From positions 1 through 21,133 of IMG/VR virus record IMGVR_UViG_3300026186_000012: a stretch of 21,133 bases of DNA; one strand, 5' to 3'. Source of the DNA: a virus. Below are positions 1,513-20,243 of this stretch, in pieces. The first letter of the stretch is position 1. Every line of letters starts with the position of its first letter. The position numbers and the translations under genes are program-made. The notes beneath the pieces are model-generated. The model made no database searches and was not told the origin of the DNA. It worked only from the letters and a program-made list of their open reading frames with translations.

Positions 1513-1676
1513 ACCCGCTGGGGAGCCTGACGCCTTAGGGCTGAAAGTCATAAAATACTCTCTTGAGAGAGGAAGACAGGGCGGCTGACTACTTGCGAGG
1601 TGCTTAGTCGATCCATACCCCGGCAACATTAATTGAATAAGTTGGCAATTTCAAAGAAGGAATTAGAGCAAAATGA
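1513..1676 (+). other. Non-coding portal leader with hairpins
   Basis: No gene fits in this 164-base gap. It can form several small hairpins: CTCTC/GAGAG with loop TTGA at 1558-1571, GACTA/TAGTC around 1585-1610, and AGCC/GGCT around 1530-1550. No tRNA signature (TTCRANNC loop) and no riboswitch I recognise is present. The end of the gap carries two versions of the start-associated motif. It may be the 5' leader of the long structural transcript. Confidence 0.4.
1622..1652 (+). promoter_or_regulatory. Start-associated motif (degenerate, doubled)
   Basis: GGCAACATTAATTGAAT begins at 1622, 55 bases before the portal start, and a weaker TTGGCAATTTC begins at 1642. The first matches the GGCAAC core found ahead of eight other genes here. 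A purine-rich AAGAAGGA (1654-1661) follows, but rather far from the start codon. Confidence 0.5.
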
Positions 1677-3149
1677 ATGGCTGGCAGCTCCATCGATACA
1701 GATTTATTTGATGATAGTGAACTGCCAACATGGAAACACCCGGTTTTGCGGGACATTGAGCTAGACCTAGACCTCTTGGCTGATTGTTGGACAGGGTTAC
1801 GGGGTGTCGAATCAACCTACTTACCACAGGAACAGAAAGAACCGGATAAGGCATTTGAGGCGCGATTGAGTAGGGCAACCTATGTGCCTAGTTTTCGTAA
1901 AGCAATAGAAGCAATGGCAGGCATATTTGCACAATTCACCCTAACGGATTTACCTAGCTCTATTGAGGCACAATTAGAAGATGTTGATCAGCTTGGCAAT
2001 AATTTAACCGCGTTTAGCTCAATGGCAGATGCCCTAGCGATGAGGGATGGCGGTTGTTGTGTAATGGTTGAAATGCCGCCGCAAATTGCCATAGAAAGTG
2101 AAGCTGACAGGATCGCATTAGGTCGTCAGCCGTATCTAATCCTGATTGAGCGAAAGAATATCCTAAATTGGAAAACTGAATACATAGCAGGGCAAGAGAG
2201 ACTACAGCAAGCAACTGTCCTGGAATGGAGAGAAGAGCCAGTCGGTGAGTATGGGTTTGAGCTGCAACCGTTCTTTCGTGTATTAACACCTGGCGCATTT
2301 CAAGTTTATAAAATCAACAACAAAATCGGCTCACAGCAAAAGCTAATTCTTGTGGAAGAGGGTTTTACGTCGCTTGATGAGATTCCGCTCACTTGGTATT
2401 CTCCACAACCTCAAAGATGGGGCCATGGGCTGCCGCCGTTCCGTGAATTATCGTTGCTTACGTTGCAGCATTACCGCAGCAGAAGTGATCTAAACGAACT
2501 ACTCCACCGCTGTTGCCTGCCCGTACCTGTCAGAACTGGGGCTTTGTTTAGCGATGGAACCCCGCCGCCTTTAGTAATAGGGCCTAATTCAGTAGTTGAT
2601 ATTCCCGAAGGAGCGTCCTTCCATTTCGCCGAACCAACAGGTGGCTCATTAGACCAACAGGCAGCGCATCTGAGGCATATAGAAGAGTTAATCAACAAGG
2701 AAACACTCGCTTTTATGAGTGGGCAAGACGCAGCTATGACAGCAACACAGGCACGGTTACAAGCTGGTCAAGTTCAAAGTGGTTTAAGTCTTGCAGCACA
2801 GCAAAAAGCATCAATGTTTGAAGAGATACAGATGTTGTGGTGCTCTTATACCGGGGAAGAACCAACCGGCAGCCTTGAAGTTGCAGCCCAGGCGCTTGAG
2901 GCAAAATTAGAACCGCAACAAGTGGAGCAACTTAAGGGCCTTGCTGATGGTGGTTACCTATCAAAAGAAACAACGCTAGAGCTACTCCAACGCGGCGGCG
3001 TGCTCCCTATCACCTTTGATGTAGAAGAGGAAGTTCATCTAATGGAAGGACGTGATCAAGCCCTATTGAAGAGTCAACTAGAACGCGATAGAAGGATGAT
3101 GGAAGAAGGCTTTATGGCACCACCTAATCAATTTCTACCCGGTAACTAA
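1677..3149 (+). CDS. Phage portal protein (DUF4055-type)
   Basis: At 490 residues this has the length and pattern of the DUF4055 family, which are portal proteins forming the dodecameric DNA gate at the capsid vertex. Visible hallmarks are the N-terminal CWTGLRGVESTYLP region (residues 37-50) with RATYVPSFRKAIEAMAG soon after, the central segment with HGLPPF and LTLQHYRSRSDLNEL, and the C-terminal ATQARLQAGQVQSGLSLA block. The family normally lies between terminase and MuF genes. MuF follows here with a one-base TAATG overlap, but no terminase precedes it in the window. A competing ATG at 1673 is out of frame and closes quickly. Confidence 0.9.
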   Translation: MAGSSIDTDLFDDSELPTWKHPVLRDIELDLDLLADCWTGLRGVESTYLPQEQKEPDKAFEARLSRATYVPSFRKAIEAMAGIFAQFTLTDLPSSIEAQLEDVDQLGNNLTAFSSMADALAMRDGGCCVMVEMPPQIAIESEADRIALGRQPYLILIERKNILNWKTEYIAGQERLQQATVLEWREEPVGEYGFELQPFFRVLTPGAFQVYKINNKIGSQQKLILVEEGFTSLDEIPLTWYSPQPQRWGHGLPPFRELSLLTLQHYRSRSDLNELLHRCCLPVPVRTGALFSDGTPPPLVIGPNSVVDIPEGASFHFAEPTGGSLDQQAAHLRHIEELINKETLAFMSGQDAAMTATQARLQAGQVQSGLSLAAQQKASMFEEIQMLWCSYTGEEPTGSLEVAAQALEAKLEPQQVEQLKGLADGGYLSKETTLELLQRGGVLPITFDVEEEVHLMEGRDQALLKSQLERDRRMMEEGFMAPPNQFLPGN

Positions 3150-5080
3150 TGACTGCCGGTGATAGCTGGGAAAGACTCAGTGATGCAATCGACGGCCCCT
3201 TTGAACGTGACATTATTGATGGCCTTGTAAATGGTTATAAAGCCTTAGAACCAAGGATCGAAAGGGCATATAAAAAGGCAGTTTTAGGCGCTGGTGATTA
3301 CCCCTTGAGGCGATTACTGACCTTAAGGCAAGAGCTAGGGCAACAGTTGAGTGGCTTGCAGGTATCTGGCACATCACAAAAGAAGATCTTAAAAGCACTT
3401 GCAGAAGGACAAAAAGCAGCAGATGAATGGGCTAAAGCAGGTTTATACAAGAAAGACCCTAAGAAGTTTGGAAATCTAGGAATAGGTCTGACGCCTGGAA
3501 TGGCACAGCAAAACCCCGAAGCATTGATTGCAGCCGCACAACGTACCCACGCTTTGTCTAACTATGCACTAGGGGCAAAAGGTTCGCAGACTATAGCGTT
3601 GATAAATAAAATTTCTGATACTGATTTGCGTGGCCGCATTATGGGAGCTGTTGAATTTCACTTAGCGCAAGGAGATAGCTGGCGAAATCTTGAGAAAACG
3701 CTGAAAGATTCCTTGGAGTTTGCTAAGAATCGCGCTGAAACAGTAGCAAGAACTGAAATGGCGTCTGCAATGGTGGAAGGTGCAAAGATGAGATATCAAG
3801 AGGAAGGGATCGAATATGTGCAATGGAATGCCACGGGGTCTAGCCGTACTTGTGGATACTGTGCCCCTAGGGAAGGGAAAGTTTATGAATTAGGTAAGAC
3901 CGTATGTCCTGCTCACCCTAACTGCAGATGTGCGCTGACGCCTTGGGATCCAGACTGGCAGGAACTAGGGATAGCAAGCGCTGAGGAGGACGCTAAACAA
4001 CGTGATGAGGTGCTAGAGGAACTAGAGGCCGCAGGAAAGAAACCAATCAATTCAGCATCACCATTTGAGCGGGCATTAGGACTTGAGGAACCCCCAGGCG
4101 TTATATGGGAACCGTCAGCAATCACGAAAAAACCTAAGAAGTTCTCGTTTGGCATTGATTATAAAAAGATAAAAAAAGATATGGAAGATATGCAGGCAAA
4201 GCTCGCGAATGCACTCTCTGGTAATCTACCTTCCTCTAGTGATTCACCCGCTGAGGTTATATCGAAGATTGGATCATACAAGGATGTTGTAAAAGAAATG
4301 GATGATCAGATGGCAAAGATGGAACAGGACATCGCACTGATTTCTATTGACCCTAAACCATTCGATAAAAAGCCTACATTACCTTCTACAACTTCAAAAC
4401 TACGCAAAAAGAAAGTCACTGATGTTGATTTCTCTTATGGTGATATTATTGATGACCTTGGCTATTCAAGTAGAGAGGAATATGAGAAGGCTGTTCAATC
4501 TATTGATAGGTGGATAGGGTCAAGCTCTTCTAATATCAGGGGAGCCGAGGCACTGCAGGCACTTGAGGAAGGTAAAGACCTTAGTGGATATGCTAAAGAC
4601 ATGGCAGAAGAACTCAAGGCAGCAGCGTCTATCTCTAACTTATCTAACAAGGATTACATACAGGGCTATAAAGATGTAGCTGACAGCATTGAAGACTTCA
4701 TTGATAGAGCACCTATCTACAAAGGCGAAGTGCATAGGGGTATAAACTTTAGCTCCAAGCAACAAGCTGATGAATTTATAGCTAGACTAGATTCTGGGGC
4801 CAAGTCAGTAGCGACTGAATCCTGGACAGCCTACGCACCCGTAGCAGAAGGTTTCGCGACTGGAGAAAATGCACCTGTATCAGGCAAGTTTGCCGTTATT
4901 CTTCATGTTCAAAACAAACGCGGAGCACCTGTTGACGTATTTAACCCAATGGAGGAATCAGAAGTATTAATCCCTAAAAATAGTGCTTATAAGGTTAAGC
5001 GAGTAAGTCATGGCGCGACGTTACAGGGAATAGGAGGAACGACAATGAAGGTGGTTAATGTGTTCCTAAAGGCCCTATAA
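3149..5080 (+). CDS. MuF head morphogenesis protein fused to ADP-ribosyltransferase
   Basis: A 643-residue protein with two recognisable parts. Residues about 140-265 match the Mu gpF / SPP1 gp7 minor head family: ARTEMASAMVEG (200-211), W226, then a zinc-type cluster C235, C238, C253, H256, C259 and C261. MuF proteins sit on the portal inside the head and can enter the cell with the DNA. The last 130 residues look like an R-S-E ADP-ribosyltransferase: R530 in VHRG, the strand motif SWT at 558-560 followed by AxxxxxF, and the catalytic-loop pair E603-S-E605 followed by VLIPKNSAYKV. The two parts are joined by a charged, helical linker (about 275-510). The ExE motif is that of arginine-specific enzymes. 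Target unknown. Translation is coupled to the portal. Confidence 0.88.
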   Translation: MTAGDSWERLSDAIDGPFERDIIDGLVNGYKALEPRIERAYKKAVLGAGDYPLRRLLTLRQELGQQLSGLQVSGTSQKKILKALAEGQKAADEWAKAGLYKKDPKKFGNLGIGLTPGMAQQNPEALIAAAQRTHALSNYALGAKGSQTIALINKISDTDLRGRIMGAVEFHLAQGDSWRNLEKTLKDSLEFAKNRAETVARTEMASAMVEGAKMRYQEEGIEYVQWNATGSSRTCGYCAPREGKVYELGKTVCPAHPNCRCALTPWDPDWQELGIASAEEDAKQRDEVLEELEAAGKKPINSASPFERALGLEEPPGVIWEPSAITKKPKKFSFGIDYKKIKKDMEDMQAKLANALSGNLPSSSDSPAEVISKIGSYKDVVKEMDDQMAKMEQDIALISIDPKPFDKKPTLPSTTSKLRKKKVTDVDFSYGDIIDDLGYSSREEYEKAVQSIDRWIGSSSSNIRGAEALQALEEGKDLSGYAKDMAEELKAAASISNLSNKDYIQGYKDVADSIEDFIDRAPIYKGEVHRGINFSSKQQADEFIARLDSGAKSVATESWTAYAPVAEGFATGENAPVSGKFAVILHVQNKRGAPVDVFNPMEESEVLIPKNSAYKVKRVSHGATLQGIGGTTMKVVNVFLKAL

Positions 5081-5085
5081 CGATT

Positions 5086-5265
5086 CTATTCGTCAAACTG
5101 GAAATTAGACTTTTTAGCCAGTGCCTCTAAGAATCCCGGTTCCCCTGGCTTGATGTTGTCTATGGGCGCTACTTCCTCTGGGCCGGTAAGCATTGGGGGT
5201 GCATTCCATCTATCGGCGGTTAATTCTTTCTTTGATGTTGTGGTTTTAGGGGTTTCTTCCGTCAT
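5086..5265 (-). CDS. Leftward 59-residue hypothetical protein beside the ADP-ribosyltransferase
   Basis: The minus strand from ATG at 5265 to TAG at 5088-5086 encodes a 59-residue protein starting MTEETPKTTTSKKELTADRW and ending FLEALAKKSNFQFDE. It is mildly acidic (about 11 Asp/Glu against 7 Lys/Arg), with no cysteine and no membrane segment. It fills the only sizeable gap in the structural operon, is the only internal gene facing left, and has a perfect TATAAT just ahead of its start. It ends five bases from the 3' end of the MuF-ADP-ribosyltransferase gene. That position allows an immunity or regulatory role, but this is inference; no family is recognised. Confidence 0.6.
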   Translation of the reverse strand: MTEETPKTTTSKKELTADRWNAPPMLTGPEEVAPIDNIKPGEPGFLEALAKKSNFQFDE

Positions 5266-5289: not shown

Positions 5290-5306
5290 GGCAACCTAAT
5301 AAAAAG
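5290..5306 (+). promoter_or_regulatory. Start-associated motif
   Basis: GGCAACCTAATAAAAAG lies 28 bases before the ATG at 5318. No Shine-Dalgarno sequence lies between motif and start. Confidence 0.6.
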
Positions 5307-5317: not shown

Positions 5318-5686
5318 ATGGCTTGGGTATCTACTGATAAGGAAAAGATCCGCCGTCATCTCTCAATCCCTGCTACCGCAATGGCACTAGAGGAACTGTC
5401 ATTTTTGATGGATTCCGCCGCCACAGATCAGATTACCTCTGCACAAACTGCAATTGGCAAGCTAGACACACTTGAGACTAACTTCGAGACTAAGGCAGGG
5501 GAGGATCTAGCGCTAATCAAAGCTGATGTTTTGGAATGGGAAACCGGCAGTCCAGAGGCCAAGCTCACAGGCATTCGTAGCCAGCAGTCCTATTGGCGGG
5601 ATCAGTTATCGCTAGCGCTTGCTTATGACGGTCGATTCTCTTCTGCTGCTGGTATTGGTGAGCAAGCTGTTTTATTACGCTCTTGA
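5318..5686 (+). CDS. Probable head-tail connector/neck protein, 122 residues
   Basis: A 122-residue mostly helical protein beginning MAWVSTDKEKIRRHLSIP. Its size, its helical make-up and its place after the MuF gene and before the tail tube fit a connector or adaptor of the neck (gp6/gp15-like), which adds a ring beneath the portal. No diagnostic motif is visible, so the call rests on context. The two central helices (about residues 25-75) are rich in Ala, Thr, Glu and Lys. It has its own start-associated motif and a 54-base gap behind it, so it is a single-gene translational unit. Confidence 0.45.
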   Translation: MAWVSTDKEKIRRHLSIPATAMALEELSFLMDSAATDQITSAQTAIGKLDTLETNFETKAGEDLALIKADVLEWETGSPEAKLTGIRSQQSYWRDQLSLALAYDGRFSSAAGIGEQAVLLRS

Positions 5687-5698: not shown

Positions 5699-5715
5699 GG
5701 CAACTTAACGCAAAC
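5699..5715 (+). promoter_or_regulatory. Start-associated motif
   Basis: GGCAACTTAACGCAAAC, 42 bases before the ATG at 5741, without a ribosome-binding site in between. Confidence 0.6.
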
Positions 5716-5740: not shown

Positions 5741-6211
5741 ATGGCATTTATGAGCGCTATCGGTTATCAATTATGGCTGAAAACCGCCACAACCGCCGAT
5801 GATTCGCACCCGACCAGTGACAGTGGGATGACAGAAATTGCAAATCTTACAAACGCCGGTATAGAAGGCTCTACAGAAACAGAGGAAGTTACTGATTACT
5901 CAACAACTGGCGGCTTTACTAAGGCAGTTGCTACTAGCCAGAGCTACTCAATCCCGATGTCTATGAATTTGGACACAGTTGACGCTGGTTATATTTTGTT
6001 AAAGGACCTGGCCTACGGTGCGCCAACTGGCAGTTATTGCCAATGGTATAGGGAAAGCCCGGATCCAGGAGCGTCGGTGACGACTATTGAGAAGCACGCT
6101 GGTATCGGCATCATTACCGACTTTAGTGAATCAATTGAAGCCGGCGGAATCGCTACTGTCAGCTTTACTTTACAGGGTTATGGTGCCTACACCCATACTG
6201 ATGCAACTTGA
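5741..6211 (+). CDS. Major tail tube protein
   Basis: A 156-residue beta-rich protein with the layout of siphovirus tail tube subunits, which polymerise in hexameric rings to make the tail shaft. The sequence has an early polar loop (ADDSHPTSDSG), the ETEEVTDYSTTGGF segment typical of tube proteins that bind neighbouring subunits, a central SIPMSMNLDT strand pair, and a C-terminal SFTLQGYGAY closing strand. Length and position upstream of completion and tape-measure genes fit. In most siphophages the tube gene follows the completion genes; here it precedes two of them. Confidence 0.7.
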   Translation: MAFMSAIGYQLWLKTATTADDSHPTSDSGMTEIANLTNAGIEGSTETEEVTDYSTTGGFTKAVATSQSYSIPMSMNLDTVDAGYILLKDLAYGAPTGSYCQWYRESPDPGASVTTIEKHAGIGIITDFSESIEAGGIATVSFTLQGYGAYTHTDAT

Positions 6212-7049: not shown

Positions 7050-7066
7050 GGCAACTTTATATTAGC
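7050..7066 (+). promoter_or_regulatory. Start-associated motif
   Basis: GGCAACTTTATATTAGC, starting in the last base of the previous stop codon's neighbourhood and 29 bases before the GTG at 7079. It contains TATATT, a possible -10 box. Confidence 0.6.
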
Positions 7067-7078: not shown

Positions 7079-9676
7079 GTGGCTGGTATCTCCCTAGGTG
7101 AGGCTCTATTTGATATTAGTCTTGATTTATCTTCCTTTAGGTCGCAATTTGATCAAGTTAAGAAGATAGCAGCAGATGCTGGCAAAAGTGTTAATAGGTC
7201 TGTCATAAGTGGCACGGAAGGAGAGGATTTTGCAGGTTTAAAAGGCAAGCTCGTACTTTTGAAAAAACAGCAAAAAGAACTTGATGCATTAATTTCTAAG
7301 TGGAAAGACTACGGAGCAGCGGGCAGGAGTTTAAGAGGTATCAGTGGATTCAAGAAGCAAACAAAAAGAGCTGCTGAACTTAAACTACAGATAGAAGCGG
7401 TTACCAAAGCCACAAAGAAGCTAAAAGTCGCTAGAGCTGCTGATCTTAAGCTACAACAACAAGAAGCTCAAAAAGTTAAGGCAGCTTATGATGCTCTAAA
7501 GGCAGCTAAAAAGGGTAGTTTTATCAGGCGAAAAGGCACTTTAGGCGGCCTAGAAATGAGGATTACAAGCCTTAAAGAAGAGATTAGACAGGTAAAGATA
7601 GGTAGCACTAGATATAAACAGCTTGCAAAGGAGATCAGGAAAGCAACAGCAGAAAGCACAAAGGCAAGAGGTGTGTTTGAAGGTGGCGGACTGAGTAAAG
7701 CTGCAATCAAAGCTGCCACTATTACAAGCATCATTGCTTTAGGTGTAGCACTTACACAGTCAACAAAGAAAGCAATTGAATTTCAGAAGCAGACAGCCAA
7801 AATAGCTGTAACCCTTGGCGAAAGTGGTGCTGCAGAATCTATTAAATTTGTAAGGGAAACAGCGAACGAATTAGGCGTTTCTTTTGATGGATTAATAGGG
7901 AGTTTTGGTGGTTTCACTGCAGCCGCAACAGGTGCCGGGATCGCGCTGGAGGATCAGAAAGACCTCTTCAAGGCAGTATCTAGAGCAGCTAGCCAAATGG
8001 GTGCTAGTCAGGAATCAGTCAACTCTATGTTCCTAGCGTTGGAACAAATGGCGGGTAAAGGCGTCGTTTCAATGCAGGAATTAAAGACTCAGTTTGGTCA
8101 ACAGTTACCGACTGCGATGAAAGCATCAGAAATAGGAATGAATCTGAACTATAAAGGATTAATGTCATTAGTAGAAGCAGGGGATTTAACAGCTCGTGAG
8201 TTCTTCCCTAAATTAACAAAAGGTCTTAATCAAATACATAAGGGTGCTGGTGGCGCTAGAACTACATCGATGAATCTGGCTAAATTGGCTAATGAATGGG
8301 GCCATCTTCAAGTAGCAGTAGGTCAAAACTTACTACCTGCCACTAATGTTGCAATTTATAATATGGGAGAGGCTTTGGAATTTGCTGCAAATAATACTGG
8401 AACCTTAATATCAGCCCTAGCAGGCATCGGAAGTGCAGCCGCTGTTTTCTATATATTAGCTAATGCAACGGAGATTGCCGCAAAAGCTCAACTCGCATTA
8501 AGTGCAGCCGCTTCAGTTGCCCAGTCTATTATGAACCCGGCTAATATATTAAAAATTGCAGCAGCGCTAGCAGTTGGGGCCGCTGTTTATTCTGGGATGT
8601 CAGTTTATATCGAAAACGCAGGAAAGGCAGAGGATAAGTTAACTGACAAGCGTGACGCTGCTATTAAAAAAGCGAATGCGTGGGGGGCTAAGAGAGCAAG
8701 ACAAGAGGCAGCATTGAAAGCACTTAAATTGCAGACGCTTCTTGTAGACAGAGAAAAGGCCACCGCAGAGCTGCAATCAATAGCCACTGGTAAGTTAAGA
8801 ATCTCAATGCTACAAAAAGAGCAGGATTTAGTTAATAATATTGCAAACACAAGAAACCAGTCAATTATTAGCCGTGCTACTACTATCAAGAGCCTTTTAG
8901 GTATAGAAAGCAATCACGCGCAAGCTATGGCCGCAGATGATAAAACAAGACAACAAATTAAGGAAAACTATGGTGCTAGGATCTATAGGCAAACAGTGAA
9001 GGAATTCTCGCTAAGGGCTAAAGCATTAGTAGCTGAGCAAGAAGGCGCAAGAGTAGCGCTGCAGTTTAAGCAACAAGGGGTAAGGATAGCTTTAAGGCAA
9101 AGAAAGATAGAAGCCGATATTGCGCTAATTGATGCAAAAGCAAAGGCAGCAGAGAAACCAAACGATGCGAACTTAAAAAGAATTGTTGAATTAAGGAAGG
9201 CTGCGCTGCTATTGGTGCAAAATGAGAGTAGAGAACTCCAAGGACAGCAAACCCTAGAGAATGAATTGCTAGGAGTGCAGCAAACAGCCGCTAAGGATCG
9301 CTTAAAAGATGCAAAGGTATTAGAACTAGCCTCACAGAAACAGTATGCTAATGCAGATCAACTCGGTCAGTTGCAAGGTGAAATCAATGGTTTGTATAGA
9401 GGCCAAACAACGAACATAAAACAAGCTACTGTCGCAGCAACTGATTTTAGAACCCAAATAGAAGGTTCAGCAAAGTCTCGGGCAAATTTATCTGACCAGT
9501 TTCAGGCAACAGTTAAAACAACCCTAGACGGCAGCCAGACATTTAGCACAATGAATAAAACATTGACCAACATTGAAACCAACACTGCTAACGCAGCAAA
9601 ACAACCAATTAATATTTATATGACTACAAACCCACAAGGCCAAGTAACTTCCGCAACCTCAGGCACTCAACCATGA
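7079..9676 (+). CDS. Tape measure protein, 865 residues
   Basis: The longest helical protein here and a clear tape measure, which sets tail length and helps DNA entry. Residues 25-200 are a Lys/Ala-rich coiled coil. Residues about 235-390 match the tape-measure N-terminal domain, including MAGKGVVSMQELKTQFGQQLP (split here at 324-344) and EAGDLTAREFFPKLTKGL. LANEWGHLQVAVGQNLLP (403-420) is the usual element after it. Hydrophobic segments at 208-226, 441-461 and 485-510 could insert into the host membrane. A second coiled coil fills 515-800. At about 1.5 angstroms per residue, tail length would be near 130 nm (family rule, not measured). The start is GTG, with no Shine-Dalgarno. Confidence 0.9.
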   Translation: MAGISLGEALFDISLDLSSFRSQFDQVKKIAADAGKSVNRSVISGTEGEDFAGLKGKLVLLKKQQKELDALISKWKDYGAAGRSLRGISGFKKQTKRAAELKLQIEAVTKATKKLKVARAADLKLQQQEAQKVKAAYDALKAAKKGSFIRRKGTLGGLEMRITSLKEEIRQVKIGSTRYKQLAKEIRKATAESTKARGVFEGGGLSKAAIKAATITSIIALGVALTQSTKKAIEFQKQTAKIAVTLGESGAAESIKFVRETANELGVSFDGLIGSFGGFTAAATGAGIALEDQKDLFKAVSRAASQMGASQESVNSMFLALEQMAGKGVVSMQELKTQFGQQLPTAMKASEIGMNLNYKGLMSLVEAGDLTAREFFPKLTKGLNQIHKGAGGARTTSMNLAKLANEWGHLQVAVGQNLLPATNVAIYNMGEALEFAANNTGTLISALAGIGSAAAVFYILANATEIAAKAQLALSAAASVAQSIMNPANILKIAAALAVGAAVYSGMSVYIENAGKAEDKLTDKRDAAIKKANAWGAKRARQEAALKALKLQTLLVDREKATAELQSIATGKLRISMLQKEQDLVNNIANTRNQSIISRATTIKSLLGIESNHAQAMAADDKTRQQIKENYGARIYRQTVKEFSLRAKALVAEQEGARVALQFKQQGVRIALRQRKIEADIALIDAKAKAAEKPNDANLKRIVELRKAALLLVQNESRELQGQQTLENELLGVQQTAAKDRLKDAKVLELASQKQYANADQLGQLQGEINGLYRGQTTNIKQATVAATDFRTQIEGSAKSRANLSDQFQATVKTTLDGSQTFSTMNKTLTNIETNTANAAKQPINIYMTTNPQGQVTSATSGTQP

Positions 9677-10419: not shown

Positions 10420-13400
10420 TGGTTTTAGATGTACGCGCCGAAATCATTAGCAACCTAGGGCCGGTCATTTCTGGTAGTGTTCGCGACGATCACATTCAAG
10501 GGCAAGGTTTAATATTTACCAGTGGAGAATTGACAATTGCCGGATTAATCACACCTGCTCGTGGTGCTGTTGTAAATTTAGCTTATATTACTCCTGATGG
10601 TGGCACAGCCGCACGTTTTCCGCGTGGTCCTTTTCGTGTTGTTCAATCATTTGCTAATCCTTTAAGTAATGAAAGTCAAATATCAATAGCTAATGAACTA
10701 GCATTTCACAAAAACCAAGGTGGCGGTTCTATCAATTCTGATGTCACTGCTGGAGTGAATGGTAGGGATCCTTCAATCATTGCCACTACGAACCTACGCG
10801 AAACCGCCGGGATGATTTGCGGCCGTCTCAGTATTGAAGTAGGTAATTTAGGCACTTGGGATTTACCTAAGCAACAAATGGCTATTCAATGTGATGATTA
10901 TATAGAAACCCTATCAGAAATTCTTGCTAGCGCTGGACGGGTTGGCTATATGTCTGCCGAAAACAAGCTAGAAGTTATTGAGTATGCTTCGCTTGGTAAT
11001 GGTGGCCCTACACTTACCTTTGAAAACATTGTAGATGTAAACCCTAACGCAGGCGGCTTAGATTTCAGTGAAAGGCCACTAGGAGAAGGGGAAGCGCAAA
11101 CACTAGAGGAGGAAGATGATGATGATGATGATGATGATGATCTAGCACGCTACCTAATTACCAATAGCGGTTATGGAAAATTTAAGGAAACTTGGACTCA
11201 AACAAGGAGTGACAATTGGAGTGAGTTAAGTCTTTTGCTAACTAATGGCTCCAATATTACTTATAAAACTCAAGAAACAACAAAGACAGAAGAGTTACAA
11301 AAAGAACCAGACAACAGGACCATTAGTAGAAAACAGTCAATTATCAACCCGCTAGTTAAGATAAATAGTCAATACATACAGGACCACCTTAATGCCGGCA
11401 CTTCTGCAGATAGTATCAGCGCAGCAAATACTCTGATCGGGTCAACTGTAACTGATACCTATGAATACAAAGAAACACGCGGGAGTTGGGGGCGATTTTC
11501 GTGGACAAAAGAAGAGAAGGAACAATTTGACCAAGAAATAGAGACAGCTCGCCAGAATTTTTCAGGTAATCGGCTTGACATTAAGCTACTACCTGAACTG
11601 CCTACTTATCGGCTAGAATCGGTAACTTCTGAGCGTAAAATGTCAGAGGTAGAAGCATTAGGCCGTATAGGATTTAAAGATTATTCTGTGTTGCCATCCT
11701 TACCTAATGGTTACGGCATAGAGTCAAGAGAAGTGACAAGATACATATATAATGGCGGAAAGATTAAAGAAATCAGAAATACATACATAGCGCATGGATT
11801 AACTCAAATAGGCCAGCAGTCACTAGCAGCAGCAGCAGAAACCATTGATCCGGCAGTGAGTAATTATTTTGATATTTTCCTTAAAGCATTTTGGGGTCTT
11901 GTTTTAGATAATCATTCAGTGCAGATTTATGATGATCCATCTATTTCTGAAGAGGACGTAGTACCGGGCTATATGTCACACGCAAAAAATGCAGATATTG
12001 TCTATAGGGGTACGTCACAAATCCAAGTCGGCGAACCAGACACACCTTCTAGCGCATCAAATGCTGTAACTGCCTTTGATCCTGCCTTTTTACCTGATGA
12101 TGTGATGAACGATGACGGAACAATAACAACAGCCGCAGAAGAGTCAGGGGAATCAGCTTATGATGCACTGGTTAGATATGCAGAAGAACAAAATCTATTG
12201 CTGCTTGGTCATCGCCTTGGGATGCAAATTGTAACGTCATTAGGAAGACTGCCCATAGATCCATTAGCTGCTTTTCATGTGCAAAATGATGGCATAACAG
12301 CAATGTATAGAACCAATGGCATGAGTTGGGCTTTCGATTCTGATAGCTGCCTCGTTAGCACTGATGCTCTTTACTGGGGCTTAGTAGGTGGAGATATAAA
12401 TGGGCCGAGGTGGTCTCCAGTAGCTCCTGGCATCACTGCATTACCAACACCCCCTGCAGTCGTTAACAATGGTGCCCAAGACCCTGCTAATAGTATTGCC
12501 TTGACTTCTACCGTTGACGTAAGCAACCAAACGGCTGTAAATACTCTGATAAATTCTTTACCTGATACCCAGACGCAGACATTCCCAACACAGCTCACGC
12601 CAACAAATATAAGCAAACCTTTCAACGTAATCAAAGAAGTATCTTTAAGTGTCGGGCCTCGGATAACAGTCAAGACAGTCCCTGGCGGAATTAATAGAGA
12701 TATGGGCAGCGTCGTCATAGCAACAAAGCCAAAAATTTCAGTTATAGAAAAGACAGAAGCCCAAGTTATTAAGGCTAAAGTTAATGTGACCGGACCAACG
12801 TGGAGTCAATTTACGATAGACCTAGATTTAGATGTTACAGCGACAACGTCTGCAGTTACCTCTCCCACTAATTGGACCATTACTACGGGTGATACAGACG
12901 ACGATTACCCGCTGCATGGACATCATAGTTTCTACGCTGATCAAGCCGCTATAGAGGCCGATGGGTTCACCTTTATAGGTGCTGATGAGGATGACGAGGC
13001 GTTGGAATTTACACCCTCTGCTGCGTTCCAGGGTATCGAATTTTTAGATGGTAAAGTACCAAACAGCCCCTCTCATGCATGGCGGCTAAATACAAATGGC
13101 GGCGTTTATTATGACAGCGATTCAACCAAAGAAATCAAGGCATACAATAAAGATAAAATTACTGACATTGGTTCTGCTGACCTCTATGTGGGGTGGTGGC
13201 CTGGTGATACTTATGTAAGGCTGGCAGGTTTCTTAGAGTTCAATGATGGAACTAGAGACTGGTTAGTGGTCAGGGCTGATATGGCAGTTCCTTACGATTC
13301 TACTAATGATGGTTTTTCTGTTGAGGCATGGTTCGCAACTGATGGATCTATCTCCGTTCGTTATAGCGCTGCTGAGAGATATGATGATCCTAATGTGAGC

Positions 13401-13563: not shown

Positions 13564-13580
13564 GGCAACCTAACTTAAAA
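13564..13580 (+). promoter_or_regulatory. Start-associated motif
   Basis: GGCAACCTAACTTAAAA, directly after the hub stop codon and 26 bases before the ATG at 13590. No Shine-Dalgarno follows. Confidence 0.6.
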
Positions 13581-13589: not shown

Positions 13590-14084
13590 ATGGCCATCGA
13601 TATCACACGGAATAAACAGGTTAGTCGTGCTGCTGCATGGTGGCTATATGAAGGTGCGACTTTTACGGTGTATTTGATGGATACAACAGGCGCTACTAGT
13701 CCACCAGATAATTTCGCACCCTATGACGATTGGATTTCACCGACTGATTACAGGGTTGATTCTCAGCTAGACCTTACTTTGACAGGGGGGAACGTTAACT
13801 ATGGCATTTTGGATAATCATATTGTCTACGTTCCTCAGCTTGTCATTACCCTGAACTATCCAACGTTGACAAGCTATGGTGATTACACCTTCACTGACCT
13901 TGTTGTCACATCAACTATTTCAAAATCAAGTTCACTAGCCAGTGGTGATCCTGCTTGGGCGGGTACTTTTACAGTCGCTACTATCCATGAAGATCCCGCA
14001 ATTACGATGGACGCCTCAGACGATGCAAAAATCTATTATTTAGACATCACCGCAACTTCTGCAGTCTCTGAAATTGAAGCCTAA
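13590..14084 (+). CDS. Structural protein, 164 residues, related to the next gene
   Basis: A beta-rich protein, poor in Lys and Arg and rich in Thr, Asp and Tyr, as expected of a virion tip or decoration component. The N-terminus has a helix ending in AAWWLYEGATFTVYLMDTT (residues 14-32), and the C-terminal half has a YTFTDLVVTSTISKS strand pair. The same pattern (YEG, hydrophobic strand, TT, later FTHLVVL) recurs in the 242-residue protein at 14119, so the two are probably diverged duplicates. No named family recognised. Likely a minor tail or tail-tip accessory protein, by position between hub and fibres. Confidence 0.5.
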   Translation: MAIDITRNKQVSRAAAWWLYEGATFTVYLMDTTGATSPPDNFAPYDDWISPTDYRVDSQLDLTLTGGNVNYGILDNHIVYVPQLVITLNYPTLTSYGDYTFTDLVVTSTISKSSSLASGDPAWAGTFTVATIHEDPAITMDASDDAKIYYLDITATSAVSEIEA

Positions 14085-14089: not shown

Positions 14090-14106
14090 GGCAACTTTAA
14101 CGTATA
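14090..14106 (+). promoter_or_regulatory. Start-associated motif
   Basis: GGCAACTTTAACGTATAA, 29 bases before the ATG at 14119. TATAAA within it (14103-14108 region) is a possible -10 box. Confidence 0.6.
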
Positions 14107-14118: not shown

Positions 14119-14847
14119 ATGGCAGTAACCGCAGCGCATACAAAAGCAGAACTAGCGCGGATGATGAGGCTTGCTTATGAAGGTCAAAACGTAGCAATTT
14201 GTTTAATTAATACAACTGCCGCGCTAGCAACAGATGACCCAATAGAAACATGGCTTCAATATGAAGTGTTGCCTATCTCTAATGGTTATACAAGGTTCTT
14301 CACTGGGGTATTACCTGCCGGAACTTATAGCACAACAGCAGAACGAAATGAACAGTCTGCGCTTGATGTTGAATTCACGGCCACAACTAACAGCATATCC
14401 TTCACACATTTAGTTGTATTGCTGGATTCATATACGCCCGCAAGTTATACGTCAGGCCTAGGCCCTAGTAGTTTGGTTGGATCAGTGACCTTGTCTAGTG
14501 GCGTTGAGCTTAGTGGTGATCAATTAACGCTAAATGCTGTTCACGATGACCTAAGCGACGGTGACCCGGTGACGATTACGATTGATGCTGGTGGCACAGT
14601 TCCAACAGGCTTAACAGAAGGTACGCTCTATTATGTTGATGACACTGCAACTGATAAAATCACATTACACACAGCCACCCCTGTAGCATCTGGGAATAGG
14701 GTTGATATTACTGCAATAGGAACCGGTACTATGAGGGTTAGGAGATGCAGGGGCAGCGTCTACTCGGTGATGACAGAAAGTGCCGCAACTGTTATTAACG
14801 ACTCAGCAAAAGTAGGCTACTTGGTTACGCTAGCGGTTGATGACTGA
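14119..14847 (+). CDS. Structural protein with inserted beta domain, 242 residues
   Basis: The N-terminal 110 residues parallel the previous protein: LAYEGQNVAICLINTT at about 18-33 and FTHLVVLLDSYTP near 94-106. A segment of about 80 residues (roughly 130-208) is extra. It includes HDDLSDGDPVTITIDAGG, PTGLTEGTLYYVDD and a closing GTGTMRVRR, the pattern of a small beta module that recurs in many phage tail proteins (high-to-low GLxxGTxYYV motif). The tail end (SVYSVMTESAATVIN) resumes the base fold. This looks like domain insertion into a duplicated tail-tip protein. Exact role unknown. The stop TGA overlaps the next ATG. Confidence 0.5.
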   Translation: MAVTAAHTKAELARMMRLAYEGQNVAICLINTTAALATDDPIETWLQYEVLPISNGYTRFFTGVLPAGTYSTTAERNEQSALDVEFTATTNSISFTHLVVLLDSYTPASYTSGLGPSSLVGSVTLSSGVELSGDQLTLNAVHDDLSDGDPVTITIDAGGTVPTGLTEGTLYYVDDTATDKITLHTATPVASGNRVDITAIGTGTMRVRRCRGSVYSVMTESAATVINDSAKVGYLVTLAVDD

Positions 14848-15035: not shown

Positions 15036-16801
15036 ACCGTGTAGTTAGGGTTTTTCAGAACTCATGGCCTGGGTTAAGGTCTAAACCTATTCAACGCTAC
15101 AGACCTGCAGCAAAGAAGGGAACGGCCACCGTAGCAGTCGCGATAGTGCTAAGTGCTGTTGAACATTCTAACTATAAAGTTGATACGTGGGGAACTAATA
15201 ATAATCTTGCGTTGTCGAAGCATAGAGAGAATGCTGATTGGTATTGGTTATTTGCTATGGATAGGGAGAATATTGAAGACGGTTTTCCTTCTTACTATGG
15301 CGATTATTCATTACACCATCAAGAAGTCGATGATATAAAAGACGATAAGTTGGAATGGGATGATCAGCCATCCGTGAAATGGCACGAACTAAGAGAACAA
15401 TTGGCTAAGAATTTTGGCTACAAGGATGAATATGACAAGGGGGAAACCAAGCATCAAGTTCCTATCTATGTCTTATGGCAAAAAGGTTACACCGTTAGAT
15501 ATATGCCGCCGCTTTATGATGAAGATGCAATTGAAGCAGAATGGGAAGCCAAGGTAGATGCTTTTGCAGATGAGTATCACTTGTATATGCATAGATATAA
15601 TAGGTTGACTGACTACGGAATAGGAAGTTTGCGATGGCCCAGAACTGTTATATTCCCTAGATCAGAGCCCTATTATACGTATAGCCACTATCATGGAACT
15701 CCAGGAGGTGAGGAAGATGAAGACAATCCAGATGGTCTATGGCAGGAACTAGGTGACCCTATGTGGATGAGTAAGGGCAGTTGGACCGGCAGCTCAGATC
15801 ATCAGTATGGACCTTATGGGCAAGACGGTTATCTATATTCTGGAGCCACAACCACTCTAGAAGGTTTTTGGGATCGACAAGGCAGCCCTCCTATAGTTAA
15901 GGATGGTGTTGAGTGGATTAGTTTCGATAAAGGGATGCATCAAAATCACATGCAAGAATATGAATACATACGGAAAAAACATAAGACTAGAGATGAATCT
16001 TGGGAGCTAAGAGAGCACGTTTGGGGGCCACCTAAACAATGCTTCTGGGATACTTCAGACCCTAATTACCCTAGTGGCAAATGGAGTGCAAACGAAGATA
16101 GCCCTGATGCCTGGGGTGATGACTATAACTGCTGGGATAAAGAAATAGGGCCTGCTGATATTGCTGCAGTTTTAGAATATAAAGCCTATAAAGATAACCG
16201 AGACTATGATACTACTGTTAGTTCTGGCTCTAATCAAACAGTTTATGAGGCTGTTTATCTAGGAGACTATAAAGCGGTTGGGATTCAGTTACCTGCTGAT
16301 GTTTCACAAGTCGATGACTGGTATGGAGCGCTAGGGTTTGAAGGCGATGTGGATTTCTTTGGTAATACTACCTACTCTAGGTCTGCAAGTGGTGCCCCTA
16401 AACGTGCAAGCAACATTGTTCTACATATAGATGATGGAACACTTCCTGATCATGTAAGGGTAGGCTATGAGGACTTTAAGCAATTGATTGATTCAGATAA
16501 TTCACGGGTTCTCTGCTCAGCTACACTCGTAACACCTTATGGCGTAGGGGGTGGAAATTGGAGCACTCCATTTTATGCAGAGGAAGCCCATAAACCCCTT
16601 ACCATATCTGGAGCCTTTGATTTCGGCACTGATTTTTCAGACATTTTGGTTGAATTTAACTATGACCCTTACAAAAGTTTTCTAGCGGCAATTTCTGGTA
16701 GTGATAGCCCTTGGCTTGATTATCCGTCAAATACAGACCCACGTTACTGGTTCACAAGCTCAGACGCTGCAGATGATTTTAGTATACTTTTTAATGATTA
16801 A
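15032..16801 (+). CDS. Unknown aromatic- and acidic-rich protein, 589 residues
   Basis: I do not recognise this protein. After a basic N-terminus and a short hydrophobic stretch (TATVAVAIVLSAV, about 32-44) come some 330 residues extraordinarily rich in Trp, Tyr, His, Asp and Glu, for example DWYWLFAMDREN, KWHELREQLAKNFGYKD and EEDEDNPDGLWQELG. I count roughly 25 Trp. The last 200 residues change character to a beta-rich, Ser/Asp/Gly composition resembling an adhesin or virion-surface domain (GDYKAVGIQLPADVSQVDDW). Position between tail-tip genes and the scaffold suggests a tail or fibre component. The N-terminal hydrophobic stretch could be a membrane-active or packing segment. Confidence 0.55.
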   Translation: MNRVVRVFQNSWPGLRSKPIQRYRPAAKKGTATVAVAIVLSAVEHSNYKVDTWGTNNNLALSKHRENADWYWLFAMDRENIEDGFPSYYGDYSLHHQEVDDIKDDKLEWDDQPSVKWHELREQLAKNFGYKDEYDKGETKHQVPIYVLWQKGYTVRYMPPLYDEDAIEAEWEAKVDAFADEYHLYMHRYNRLTDYGIGSLRWPRTVIFPRSEPYYTYSHYHGTPGGEEDEDNPDGLWQELGDPMWMSKGSWTGSSDHQYGPYGQDGYLYSGATTTLEGFWDRQGSPPIVKDGVEWISFDKGMHQNHMQEYEYIRKKHKTRDESWELREHVWGPPKQCFWDTSDPNYPSGKWSANEDSPDAWGDDYNCWDKEIGPADIAAVLEYKAYKDNRDYDTTVSSGSNQTVYEAVYLGDYKAVGIQLPADVSQVDDWYGALGFEGDVDFFGNTTYSRSASGAPKRASNIVLHIDDGTLPDHVRVGYEDFKQLIDSDNSRVLCSATLVTPYGVGGGNWSTPFYAEEAHKPLTISGAFDFGTDFSDILVEFNYDPYKSFLAAISGSDSPWLDYPSNTDPRYWFTSSDAADDFSILFND

Positions 16802-16852
16802 TGGATTTGATGCGTTGATGTCCATTTAGACTAGTGAGCGCTAGCATATCTC

Positions 16853-16858
16853 TAAAAT
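16853..16858 (+). promoter_or_regulatory. Possible -10 box before the scaffold-like gene
   Basis: TAAAAT in the 66-base gap 16802-16867 matches five of six -10 consensus bases, but no good -35 lies 16-18 bases upstream. This is the only sizeable gap before an uncoupled structural gene that lacks the GGCAAC motif. A five-codon frame (MDLMR) at 16801 is not considered a gene. Confidence 0.25.
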
Positions 16859-16867
16859 TCTTTCTTT

Positions 16868-17569
16868 ATGGCTGATACACCTGAAAATGTTTCACCTGAC
16901 ACTCCCGAAGCTGAACCCGATAGTCTCGGACAGGCTGGAATGGCAGCACTCAAACAGGAACGCCAGAAGGTAACAGAACTAGAGCGAAAACTAAAACGCT
17001 ATGACAAGCACCTCGACGGTATAGAAATAGAAGAAATTCGTCAGCTCAGGGATAGCCAAAAATTGGAGGATGAAATCAGGGCAGAATATGATAAGCAGCT
17101 AGAAGTAGCTAAGACAGAAGCGCAAAAGGAAGCAAAGGCACAGCTAGAAATTAAAGATCAAAAATTCCTTGATGCTGTTGGGGAGAAAAATTCGCTATTA
17201 CAAAAGCAGCTCCTGAGCAATGCCTTCCAAGTCGCAGGTGGTCGCAGTGGTGGAGCAGAAGATGGAACAACCTATTTTGATGCGCTCTTAGGTGCTGTCG
17301 GTAATCAATTTAAGCTCAATGAAAACGGCGACGTGATTGTTTTAGATCCCAAAAATGGAGAGACTCGCTTGACTGCTGATGGTGATCCAATGACCCCTGC
17401 TGCATACCTCGAAAGCCTGAAAAATCACCCGGTATATGGTCATTTCTTTGCGCCCACTTCTGACGGTTTTGGGTCTGGAATGCGAGGTAGTGGGAACCTA
17501 ACCAGTGGACAGGTGCAAAGCATGAGCCCTCTCGAAAAACTTAGCTATGGCCTGGGAGGTGGAAAATGA
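16868..17569 (+). CDS. Scaffold-like capsid assembly protein, 233 residues
   Basis: The composition and order match phage scaffolding proteins, which template procapsid assembly and then leave. A Pro/Glu-rich disordered start (residues 1-18) is followed by LGQAGMAALKQERQKVTELE (20-39), a long charged coiled coil to about residue 118 (Lys/Glu/Gln heptads), then a globular C-terminal part with AYLESLKNHPVYGHFF (179-194) and a glycine-rich tail. Such genes normally stand immediately before the major capsid gene; here the next genes are a tail assembly chaperone and fibres. It lacks the start-associated motif that its neighbours carry. A minor structural coiled coil unrelated to scaffolding remains possible. 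Confidence 0.65.
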   Translation: MADTPENVSPDTPEAEPDSLGQAGMAALKQERQKVTELERKLKRYDKHLDGIEIEEIRQLRDSQKLEDEIRAEYDKQLEVAKTEAQKEAKAQLEIKDQKFLDAVGEKNSLLQKQLLSNAFQVAGGRSGGAEDGTTYFDALLGAVGNQFKLNENGDVIVLDPKNGETRLTADGDPMTPAAYLESLKNHPVYGHFFAPTSDGFGSGMRGSGNLTSGQVQSMSPLEKLSYGLGGGK

Positions 17570-18126
17570 CGTTAGATCTGCCCTTTGTTACTGCTCCGAC
17601 TAAACATAAGCAACGCCGTGTTGGTACTAAAGCAACTGGTATCCTGTCAATCCCTGTCTATGGTTGCTTACAGGTTGGGGAAGTGGCCGCCGCTAGTGAT
17701 TTAGCTGATGGTGATCAAGCGATTGTAGTTGGTGCCAAACTTGCACAGCGTATTTCTGTAGAGCAAAAGATCACTATCCTCGAAGCGTTTCAAGTTGTGG
17801 AAGATGCTGCTATAGGTCGCGAATTATCAAAAGAAAAGGCATCTATTAGGCTTAAGTATTTGCCAGAAATTGCAGAGCTAACACGTATATATATAAATGC
17901 TGGTAGAGAACGCCAAATCGCCTCTGTAACGGCATTAATACGTCATAGGTTAGAACGTCCAGGTTGGGCGCTGACTGATACTGCAAAGCTCCCTCAGCCC
18001 CTAATGGAAGCGCTTTATATATTATTTGAAGATGAACGGGCTAGCGGTGATGATGATAGCGGAGCGCCCCCAAGCGAGGAAGAAATAAAAAAATTGCAGC
18101 CGGGGATTGGAAACGAAACCAAGTAG
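17566..18126 (+). CDS. Tail assembly chaperone, zero-frame product (G-like), 186 residues
   Basis: Overlaps the scaffold gene by four bases with a strong GGGAGG (17554-17559) six bases before ATG. The C-terminal half (LKYLPEIAELTRIYINAGRE and then RLERPGWALTDTAKLPQPLM) is the helical pattern seen in tail assembly chaperones, ending in an acidic disordered tail (EDERASGDDDSG). Chaperones of this class coat the tape measure before tube polymerisation and are made in two forms by ribosomal frameshifting, like G and GT of lambda. A slippery run lies ten codons before the stop, and the -1 frame beyond it is open. In lambda-like order this gene adjoins the tape measure; here it is 8 kb away. Confidence 0.7.
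   Translation: MTLDLPFVTAPTKHKQRRVGTKATGILSIPVYGCLQVGEVAAASDLADGDQAIVVGAKLAQRISVEQKITILEAFQVVEDAAIGRELSKEKASIRLKYLPEIAELTRIYINAGRERQIASVTALIRHRLERPGWALTDTAKLPQPLMEALYILFEDERASGDDDSGAPPSEEEIKKLQPGIGNETK
18087..18093 (+). other. Programmed -1 frameshift site (A AAA AAA)
   Basis: In the zero frame the codons ATA AAA AAA TTG contain the heptamer A AAA AAA, a classic -1 slippery sequence. After slipping, the frame continues without a stop from 18093 to 18767. Downstream, TTGG/CCAA (18107-18122) and GCCCA/TGGGC (18131-18148) can form hairpins that might pause the ribosome. This is the standard arrangement for tail assembly chaperone genes. Confidence 0.78.
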
Positions 18127-18767
18127 ATTGGCCCACTATATTCTGGGCGCTTTGTAAATCCTTCCCTGGCCAATTTAATAGAAAAACCTTTTCACAGGAG
18201 CTTGTTACTGTTGTCATGGGTGCCTATCGATCACTGCAACAACTAGAAAGGGAACAACTAGCACTTAATGAATTACAAGGCGCTCAATTATGCAATCTAA
18301 CCTATAACCTTAACCGTGATCAAAAGAAAGGTAAGATACTGACCCTGCAAGACTGGCAGTTTTTCCATACAGAACAACGCAAAGAAGAAGACAAGCTGCC
18401 TGCAGTTGTTGCCCACATTTGTCTTGCCCTACGTCATGAGGAGAAGCTGCCAAGTTTATTATTAGGTATCTGGAAGGAAGTTATAGCGCAAGCAAGCCAA
18501 GGGGTAGAAATGCCTGAAATTCGTTGTTTAGTTTCGGCTGATCAAAATTGTATTGCAGTTGCTCCTGTATGGGAAAGCAAAAACCTACGGACATTTCTAG
18601 CAGTGAAGACAAAAAAACAAGGTGAACTAGTGGAATTGTTTGATATTGATAGACCAATGCTCAGCTATAAGTTCAAGCTACCACTAGATATTCAAGCGAT
18701 CCACTATGAGGCCGGTGTTCTCTTGTTAAGTGGAAACGATAAAGGTGGTTTGGCAACTTCTACCTAA
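18093..18767 (+). CDS. Tail assembly chaperone frameshift extension (T-like)
   Basis: This frame is read after the -1 slip: 176 residues of the chaperone plus 224 from here give a product of about 400 residues. The joining part reads IAAGDWKRNQVDWPTIFWAL and continues through CKSFPGQFNRKTFSQELVTVV, 41 open codons ahead of the only ATG at 18216. Those codons look protein-like and the ATG has no motif and only a distant GGAG, so I interpret 18216 as an internal Met, not a separate gene. The body is helical (LQQLEREQLALNELQGAQL) then mixed. In the chaperone family the extension binds tail tube subunits, the first part binds the tape measure. Confidence 0.72.
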   Translation: MAAGDWKRNQVDWPTIFWALCKSFPGQFNRKTFSQELVTVVMGAYRSLQQLEREQLALNELQGAQLCNLTYNLNRDQKKGKILTLQDWQFFHTEQRKEEDKLPAVVAHICLALRHEEKLPSLLLGIWKEVIAQASQGVEMPEIRCLVSADQNCIAVAPVWESKNLRTFLAVKTKKQGELVELFDIDRPMLSYKFKLPLDIQAIHYEAGVLLLSGNDKGGLATST

Positions 18768-18768
18768 A
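18752..18768 (+). promoter_or_regulatory. Start-associated motif inside upstream 3' end
   Basis: GGCAACTTCTACCTAAA overlaps the last codons of the chaperone extension and its stop, 25 bases before the GTG at 18777. Confidence 0.55.
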
Positions 18769-18776
18769 GCCTTGCA

Positions 18777-19370
18777 GTGGACATTCTCACCCTACGGACA
18801 ACGCTGGCCACAGAATTAACCAATCATTTAGGCACCTATACGCTAGGAAACGGTAGCACTACTGATAGTATCGCTGTACGTGACCCAGGCGTTGGAATGC
18901 CAGCGGGGACAACTTGCACAGGGCTTGAGGTAATTATCATTTCTGTTCCTGAATTAGCGCAAAATTTACAATATGAAGATTCCCCCTTTGCACAAACTTG
19001 GGATATTTTTTTAGTTGACTGGGGTGGTGGTGATCCTGAAGGCGCTGCAGTTCTAGTACAGTCTGGATTTCCTGGCACTACATCTAACATTGTTTCGGTT
19101 ACTGAGGATAACGGCCCTAAACGTCAGTTACAGCTAAGGATTCCCCTTTCCCGTGATGGTGGTCAAAGTGCTTTCCAGGTGCCAGCTACGTTACAAGTTC
19201 AGAGTGTTAACGGTCTCACTGGTTACGTCTCACTAGGCCTTGATGACTTAAATGATGTTTCTTCTACTGGGTTGGTTGATGATGCAGTTCTTGTTTATGA
19301 CAGTGCCACGTCTTCTTATGTTTTGAATACTCACACGACTTTAACGCTCACAGATGGCGGCAACTTTTAA
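18777..19370 (+). CDS. Chimeric tail protein: terminator-like N-terminus, fibre-like C-terminus
   Basis: A GTG start gives 197 residues with two unlike parts. Residues 1-130 are a compact alpha/beta region (LRTTLATELTNHLG, EVIIISVPELAQNLQ, AQTWDIFLVDW, KRQLQLRIPLSR) of the size and style of tail terminator or completion proteins. From about 144 the sequence becomes a fibre linker: VNGLTGYVSLGLDDLNDV (144-161) and AVLVYDSATSSYVLNTH, a pattern common in phage fibres, and it ends in DGGNF. This looks like a fusion of a tail-end protein with a fibre attachment module, or a short fibre whose N-terminus docks on the tail. Both parts are by pattern only. Confidence 0.5.
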   Translation: MDILTLRTTLATELTNHLGTYTLGNGSTTDSIAVRDPGVGMPAGTTCTGLEVIIISVPELAQNLQYEDSPFAQTWDIFLVDWGGGDPEGAAVLVQSGFPGTTSNIVSVTEDNGPKRQLQLRIPLSRDGGQSAFQVPATLQVQSVNGLTGYVSLGLDDLNDVSSTGLVDDAVLVYDSATSSYVLNTHTTLTLTDGGNF

Positions 19371-19375
19371 TTAAG
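19359..19375 (+). promoter_or_regulatory. Start-associated motif inside upstream stop
   Basis: GGCAACTTTTAATTAAG. Its first twelve bases encode Gly-Asn-Phe-stop of the preceding gene; the GTG start at 19393 is 34 bases downstream. Confidence 0.55.
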
Positions 19376-19392
19376 AAATCAGCCGGTAGCTA

Positions 19393-20217
19393 GTGGCAAA
19401 CACTATCAGGATCAAGCGTAGAGCATCGGGCGGTTCAGGCGCACCCTCAACACTAGAAAACGCAGAGCTAGCTTTTAATGAAGTTGATGAAACCTTATAC
19501 ATAGGAAAAGGTACTGGTGGTGCAAATGGTTCGGCTTCCACAATCCTTGCAGTTGCAGGCCCTGGGGCATTCGTCTCTACATCAGCAACACGAACTAAAA
19601 ATACAATCCTTGCAGGACCAACAACTGGCTCAGATGCAGCGCCAAGTTTTAGAGCATTAGTTGCTGATGACATCCCGGATATTTCGTCGTCTTATCTCGA
19701 TCTTGGTGGCGGCACAGTAAACGGAAATGTGATAATCAGCGGGAATTTTACGGTTAACGGAACGACTACAACAGTAAACAGTACGACCGTACAAGTTGAT
19801 GATAAAAACCTAGAGCTAGGCACCGTCTCTAATCCTGATGACAGTACAGCCGACAATGGTGGAATTACGTTGAAAGGCACTACAGATAAAACCTTCCAAT
19901 GGCTAAACGCTACTGATTCCTGGACTTCTTCAGAGCATATCGACCTAGCAAATAGCAAATCTTTCTATATCAATGGCAGTGTTGTCTTAAGTGGTGGTGC
20001 TTTAGGTAGTGGGGTTACAGCTTCGAGTCTTACTAGTGTTTCCACTATCTCAAGCGGTATTTGGCAAGGTACTGAAATAGCAGTAGCAAATGGCGGTACA
20101 GGTGCAACAACCTTGACGGGACTTATTAAGGGATCAGGAACTAATGCTCTTACCTCAGCTACTGCAGGCGTTGATTATTTGGCGGCGGACGGAGACATAG
20201 ACGGTGGCACGTTCTAG
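19393..20217 (+). CDS. Tail fibre protein, 274 residues
   Basis: GTG start. The first 45 residues (MANTIRIKRRASGGSGAPST, then LENAELAFNEVDETLYIGKG) match the N-terminal virion-docking module found in many phage fibres and in the Mtd N-terminal domain. The rest is a low-complexity, Gly/Thr/Ser-rich beta repeat region: DLGGGTVNGNVIISGNFTVNG, ELGTVSNPDD and a late IAVANGGTGATTLTGL, all typical fibre shaft sequences. It stops after DIDGGTF, without a globular adhesin head, so the receptor-binding tip may be on a following protein. The next gene has a matching N-terminus, suggesting a duplicated array. Confidence 0.8.
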   Translation: MANTIRIKRRASGGSGAPSTLENAELAFNEVDETLYIGKGTGGANGSASTILAVAGPGAFVSTSATRTKNTILAGPTTGSDAAPSFRALVADDIPDISSSYLDLGGGTVNGNVIISGNFTVNGTTTTVNSTTVQVDDKNLELGTVSNPDDSTADNGGITLKGTTDKTFQWLNATDSWTSSEHIDLANSKSFYINGSVVLSGGALGSGVTASSLTSVSTISSGIWQGTEIAVANGGTGATTLTGLIKGSGTNALTSATAGVDYLAADGDIDGGTF

Positions 20218-20226
20218 ACAGACCAC

Positions 20227-20243
20227 GGCAACTTTATAGCGTC
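20227..20243 (+). promoter_or_regulatory. Start-associated motif
   Basis: GGCAACTTTATAGCGTC, 47 bases before the ATG at 20274, the longest spacing after the portal copy. Confidence 0.6.

Follow-up and report, generated by a model that had tools for sequence, protein, structure and literature searches.

This locus raises the question of why a short sequence, GGCAAC followed by A, C or T and then by T, recurs just ahead of late genes in a fragment of a virus genome. The window, which is the whole 21,133-nucleotide stretch of DNA that was analysed, encodes portal, minor head, tail, tape measure, scaffold-like and fibre-like proteins. A first-pass annotation of this DNA had listed nine such motifs lying 25 to 55 nucleotides before start codons, and had proposed that they might represent promoters, translational signals or recombination boundaries. 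All nine positions were recovered exactly, and the observation is real. Over the entire window, GGCAAC[ACT]T matches the plus strand at 10 places and the minus strand at none, whereas shuffled versions of the window sequence yield 2.6 matches on average and no shuffle reaches 10. Nine of the 10 matches fall within 25–55 nucleotides 5' of a start codon, a zone that comprises 1.4% of strand positions (P about 2e-16).

The motif is associated with 9 of the 11 uncoupled late genes (starts at 1677, 5318, 5741, 7079, 13590, 14119, 18777, 19393 and 20274), in agreement with the earlier statement that nearly every gene of this kind carries it. The exceptions are the genes at 16868 and 18216, which are preceded by gaps of 66 and 89 nucleotides, respectively, and lack GGCAAC[ACT]T upstream. 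Genes that overlap or abut their upstream neighbours are without the motif, as had also been noted, and the gene at 9673 has a degenerate version (CGCAACCT at −21), carrying one mismatch through loss of the first G. Few Shine-Dalgarno sequences are found ahead of the motif-bearing genes of the window. Two internal GGCAAC matches reported previously do exist, although their exact positions are 6825 and 9505 rather than 6822 and 9503.

All sites reside on the plus strand, and the transcription start (+1) given for each is predicted from sequence only. Copies of GGCAACCT are located at 5290–5297 (ORF 5318–5686; predicted +1 at A5304) and at 13564–13571 (ORF 13590–14084; A13578). Copies of GGCAACTT are located at 5699–5706 (tail protein ORF 5741–6211; A5713), 7050–7057 (tape measure ORF 7079–9676; A7064), 14090–14097 (ORF 14119–14847; A14104), 18752–18759 (ORF 18777–19370; A18766), 19359–19366 (structural protein ORF 19393–20217; A19373) and 20227–20234 (tail-fibre-like ORF 20274–20744; G20241). 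Two tandem sites precede the portal gene. The one originally listed, GGCAACAT at 1622–1629, is present, but its spacing of 55 nucleotides is poor and it is probably not the main site. Better placed is GGCAATTT at 1644–1651, which lies 33 nucleotides before the ATG at 1677, has the usual distance from motif to start, and predicts a +1 at A1658. The tenth match, a copy of GGCAACCT at 1874–1881 that was absent from the earlier list, is within the portal ORF and probably occurs by chance.

The nearest named phages are the Synechococcus and Prochlorococcus siphophages S-CRES1 through S-CRES3, S-CBS2 and P-SS2, whose portal proteins are 36–40% identical to that of the window. No nucleotide match to any named phage was found for the window, and an Rfam search of the window likewise gave no match. 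Closer relatives are provided by about two dozen IMG/VR contigs with portal identities of 73–78%, and in these GGCAAC[CT]T precedes orthologous genes. For example, L001, L006, L017 and others keep the GGCAACCT site at 5290 ahead of the corresponding orthologue. The GC content of these relatives is mostly higher than that of the window (52–61% in the measured contigs that carry a full motif set), and the GC-rich ones keep the motif without an AT-rich tail. The AT-rich stretch previously described as following the motif therefore holds for this AT-rich phage and not for the group. Across 309 kb including the window, 70 motif sites are start-associated versus 23 intragenic and 4 on the minus strand, counts that are not independent because the compared loci share ancestry. 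As the first-pass annotation had anticipated for a genuine signal, the motif is rare in coding sequence and conserved before orthologues.

Motif discovery, using random starts and no preset pattern, returned GGCaactTt for the window and GGnAnnCTA-like motifs for S-CRES3, S-CBS2 and P-SS2, and each result exceeded the coding-sequence controls. In these three isolates, the parent motif GGnAnnCTA is located 28–33 nucleotides 5' of starts, and patterns of this type show about sevenfold enrichment between −40 and −21 relative to starts. The median distance between motif and start is about 31 nucleotides. Sites of the pattern lie mostly in the morphogenesis half, and they precede genes with an upstream gap much more frequently than abutting ones (Fisher P 4e-13). 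Positions 3, 5 and 6 vary freely in the isolates. The window clade uses GGCAAC, whereas S-CRES3, S-CBS2 and P-SS2 vary the middle positions of what appears to be the same promoter architecture. Neither S-CRES3 nor S-CBS2 has the motif ahead of its major capsid gene, which, like the two exceptions in the window (16868 and 18216), counts against the promoter reading. No motif enrichment was observed in two control siphophages without an annotated group-3 sigma, namely KBS-S-2A, which has an RpoD-type sigma factor, and P-HS2, whose genes are annotated as hypothetical.

We consider it probable (roughly 0.85) that the GGCAACYT elements are late promoters consisting of a −10 element only, and that they are read by a phage-encoded group-3 sigma factor. 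Promoters of the sigma70 family are recognized in part through A-11 and T-7, two bases that sigma region 2 reads after they are flipped out. Alignment of the motif as a −10 element gives G-14 G-13 n A-11 n n Y-8 T-7. A-11 is present at 85–94% and T-7 at 88–89% of sites in S-CBS2 and P-SS2, and the corresponding values in S-CRES3 are 80% and 76%. A further candidate, GGCAACTC, is conserved before the orthologue of gene 9673 in relatives and was set aside because it carries a C at position −7. No conserved block was found upstream of the motif, and this lack of a −35 element fits the −10-only promoter class and excludes the −35/−10 class.

Additional evidence comes from the nucleotide 7 positions after T-7, where transcription would begin. 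This predicted +1 played no part in choosing sites, and 77 of the 93 sites carry a purine there (83%, P 5e-11), compared with 40–66% for neighbouring positions. The same is true for 8 of 8 sites in the window and for 89% of distinct leaders in the IMG/VR set.

Intrinsic terminators are also positioned in a manner that supports initiation at these sites, independently of the +1 purine. A terminator lies 5' of the motif in 15 instances. At 8 sites, a terminator lies 3' of the motif with a 5' arm that begins before the predicted +1, and six of these are convincing: S-CRES3 60710 and 61130 (L028:10710 and L028:11130), S-CBS2 L029:32976, 33383 and 34705, and P-SS2 L031:2777. The cases at S-CRES3 49307 and S-CBS2 23009 were discounted for a poor T run. 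RNA arriving from upstream would form the terminator hairpin and stop, whereas RNA begun at +1 would read on, since little or none of the 5' arm would be present in it. The overlapping terminators would thus serve as insulators that block read-through and pass the promoter's own RNA. It is difficult to see why the 5' arm should be interrupted at the predicted +1 if RNA synthesis did not begin at that point.

A candidate for the protein that would recognize these promoters is encoded between terL and the portal gene in relatives of the window; the lower-GC IMG/VR relative L013 also has it. This sigma factor is 197–211 amino acids long (~207) and matches Sigma70 region 2. Its PDB matches (SigF, FliA), of which the best is 1l0o, span regions 2 and 3 only; the alignments stop at region 3 and the remaining tail is too short for region 4. 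An AlphaFold model of the protein is weak (mean pLDDT 56), too much so to serve in comparing folds. Group-3 sigmas of the Bacillus SigF and FliA type share regions 2 and 3 with the phage protein, but they also have region 4 (PMC10141391) and use −35 elements. The sigma of the window's relatives has homologues in S-CRES3 gp21 and P-SS2 ORF003 (38–39% identity over about 90 amino acids). These proteins, together with S-CRES1 gp20 and S-CBS2 gp077, are likewise encoded adjacent to terL and have a longer C-terminal part than the sigmas of the window's relatives; the extra portion in the S-CRES and P-SS2 proteins is 60–100 amino acids in length and has no recognised fold. A search of bacterial genomes for relatives of the factor confirmed none. 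The authors of the P-SS2 study predicted that its group-3 sigma serves its own regulon, and the accessible part of that report names no target sequence (PMC2784084).

We infer that this factor binds the motif, that RNA starts at the predicted positions, that the genes are expressed late and, since the window is a virus fragment lacking the terL–sigma region, that the window phage carries the sigma gene at all. If so, the group-3 sigma would direct host RNA polymerase to the GGCAACYT −10 element with no −35 element, and RNA would start at the purine 7 nucleotides past T-7 to yield a short leader. Uncoupled late genes, or pairs of genes, would each have a single promoter. In S-CRES3 (L027:12542), S-CBS2 (L030:6801) and P-SS2 (L031:2058), GGTAGACT lies ahead of the sigma gene, an arrangement that suggests autoregulation in these phages and would give a positive loop. 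The S-CBS2 gene, gp077 (L030:6832–7700), is shorter than its homologues, and the missing C-terminal part is found in another frame, indicating a frameshift within the recorded sequence of this gene.

An unlikely alternative, though the best of those considered, is that the motif is a real promoter but is recognized by a different sigma, either the primary one of the host or a second, RpoD-like phage protein. A protein of the latter kind is present in S-CBS2 (gp061) and P-SS2 (ORF113), and GGTATACT variants in S-CRES3 and S-CBS2 look like extended −10 promoters. However, GGCAACCT agrees with TATAAT at A-11 and T-7 only, KBS-S-2A has an RpoD-like sigma and is without the motif, and the region content of the group-3 sigma suits a −10-only site.

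We regard it as still less probable that the motif RNA is a translational enhancer that promotes ribosome loading where a gene has no Shine-Dalgarno sequence, for example by pairing with 16S rRNA. GGCAACT complements AGTTGCC in helix 39 of 16S rRNA, and pairing of GGCAACTTAAG with this helix was our first idea. It was abandoned because the isolates show GGnAnnCTA, and free variation at positions 3, 5 and 6 in S-CRES3, S-CBS2 and P-SS2 destroys the pairing. The scarcity of Shine-Dalgarno sequences and the restriction of the motif to the sense strand agree with a role in translation, as does the tight distance to the start codon; the spacing of 28–33 nucleotides is tighter than a promoter alone needs and counts against the promoter reading. 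Nevertheless, an enhancer does not account for a purine peak exactly 7 nucleotides after T-7, and the motif would be at the outer edge of the ribosome footprint. Moreover, with six intrinsic terminators between motif and start, transcription of those genes from upstream is hardly possible.

Two other explanations have very little to recommend them. One short contiguous element repeated ahead of late genes would also be expected of a promoter for a single-subunit, T7-like phage RNA polymerase, yet the gene annotations of the relatives reveal no such enzyme, and the A-11/T-7 logic suits a sigma factor. A Pfam search gave no match to a T7-like polymerase, and the positive controls of this search gave no match either. 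A recombination or mosaicism boundary would place the motif at gene borders, where it is indeed found, but is hardly credible for a sequence that is invariably sense-oriented, keeps a set distance from starts and a set +1 purine, and is missing from abutting borders. Among the three options first put forward, the promoter is thus strongly supported, and the translational and recombination options are not.

If the promoters are read by the group-3 sigma as proposed, a second feature of this protein might bear on the timing of late transcription. When nine sigmas are aligned, an invariant GQL followed by [SA][FL] stands out in an otherwise variable N-terminal tail. Most sigmas of the window clade (L034:8369–8992 and relatives) carry GQL[SA][FLW]x[LF] near the N-terminus, the L013 protein has GQLAWDLL, and a QLSLPL variant in L003 and L037–L040 is identical to the beta-clamp peptide of Hda (PMC3836487; PMC11139829). 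The S-CRES1 and S-CRES3 sigmas (L027:12572–13306; L055:12308–13042) instead end in QGSLF, an ending that is present in another frame in S-CBS2, whose annotated sigma gene is cut short. Both peptides are rare: among 378 proteins a Q.SLF ending is found in the S-CRES3 sigma only, and a scan of 82,616 residues gives a single QL[SA][LF]x[LF]. At the position filled by L or M in known clamp motifs, several N-terminal peptides carry F or W, the final hydrophobic residue is missing in the L047 clade (QLSLWD), and no clamp-like peptide was seen in the P-SS2 sigma.

The T4 late sigma gp55 is tied to its clamp via a short hydrophobic and acidic tail (PMC2988020). No DNA_pol3_beta match indicative of a phage sliding clamp was found in 10 records, some of which are fragments, and no phage DnaN, PolA or DnaE-type polymerase was detectable in the records searched, so the clamp on phage DNA would be that of the host. 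We therefore put forward, as a tentative idea that we judge somewhat more likely to be wrong than right, that a sigma comprising only regions 2 and 3 acts on −10-only late promoters while tethered to host DnaN by a short linear motif. The tether would be located in the disordered N-terminal tail in the window clade or at the extreme C-terminus (QGSLF) in S-CRES1 and S-CRES3. Late transcription would then depend on replication, with late genes coming on only while viral DNA is copied, and the arrangement would be a second, independently evolved instance of the gp55–gp45 principle.

The general kind of system proposed here, a phage sigma acting on −10-only late promoters, is already known from T4. 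The late promoters of T4, which rely on gp55, gp33 and the clamp gp45 (PMC2988020), likewise lack a −35 element, drive late genes and use a sigma without domain 4, a trait that holds for the sigma of the window's relatives. The short clamp-binding tail of gp55 may have a counterpart in the clamp-like peptide found in a flexible tail of the present sigma. Unlike the T4 system, the promoter sequence is GGnAnnYT, the sigma is a group-3, SigF/FliA-like protein in which region 3 can be recognised, a DNA_pol3_beta search of 10 records, some of them fragments, detected no phage clamp, and no gp33 counterpart is known. The peptide proposed as a tether would suit the beta clamp of the host and is N-terminal in the window's relatives. 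As a described sequence the GGnAnnYT element is apparently new, with no description found in the literature searched. Cluster K mycobacteriophages carry short start-associated sequences just before starts, unrelated in sequence to the present motif. The comparison with these drawn in the first-pass annotation fits in position and in nothing else, and a promoter is the better interpretation of the GGCAAC motif.

These findings provide a probable target sequence for the group-3 sigma noted in P-SS2 in 2009, predicted late-gene start points for the whole group of Synechococcus and Prochlorococcus siphophages, and a minimal sigma/promoter pair without a −35 element. If the clamp link is true, replication-coupled late transcription evolved outside the T4-like phages by way of the host clamp. 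Isolates in culture make all of these predictions testable.

Several other features of the window were observed. A GAT repeat at 11103–11150 encodes an acidic run in a 1047-amino-acid ORF that has no PHROG match. The region 5' of the portal gene (1–1676) contains only small ORFs and terminators and, unlike in the relatives, no terL–sigma pair, which may reflect either a different gene order or a junction. A gene-poor stretch there is flanked by a 22-nucleotide inverted repeat (34–55 and 801–822; 95% complementary, 745 nucleotides apart), and a direct repeat beginning AATGGACCAACCAAAACAA is located at 1246–1269 and 1476–1499 (92%), also 5' of the portal gene.
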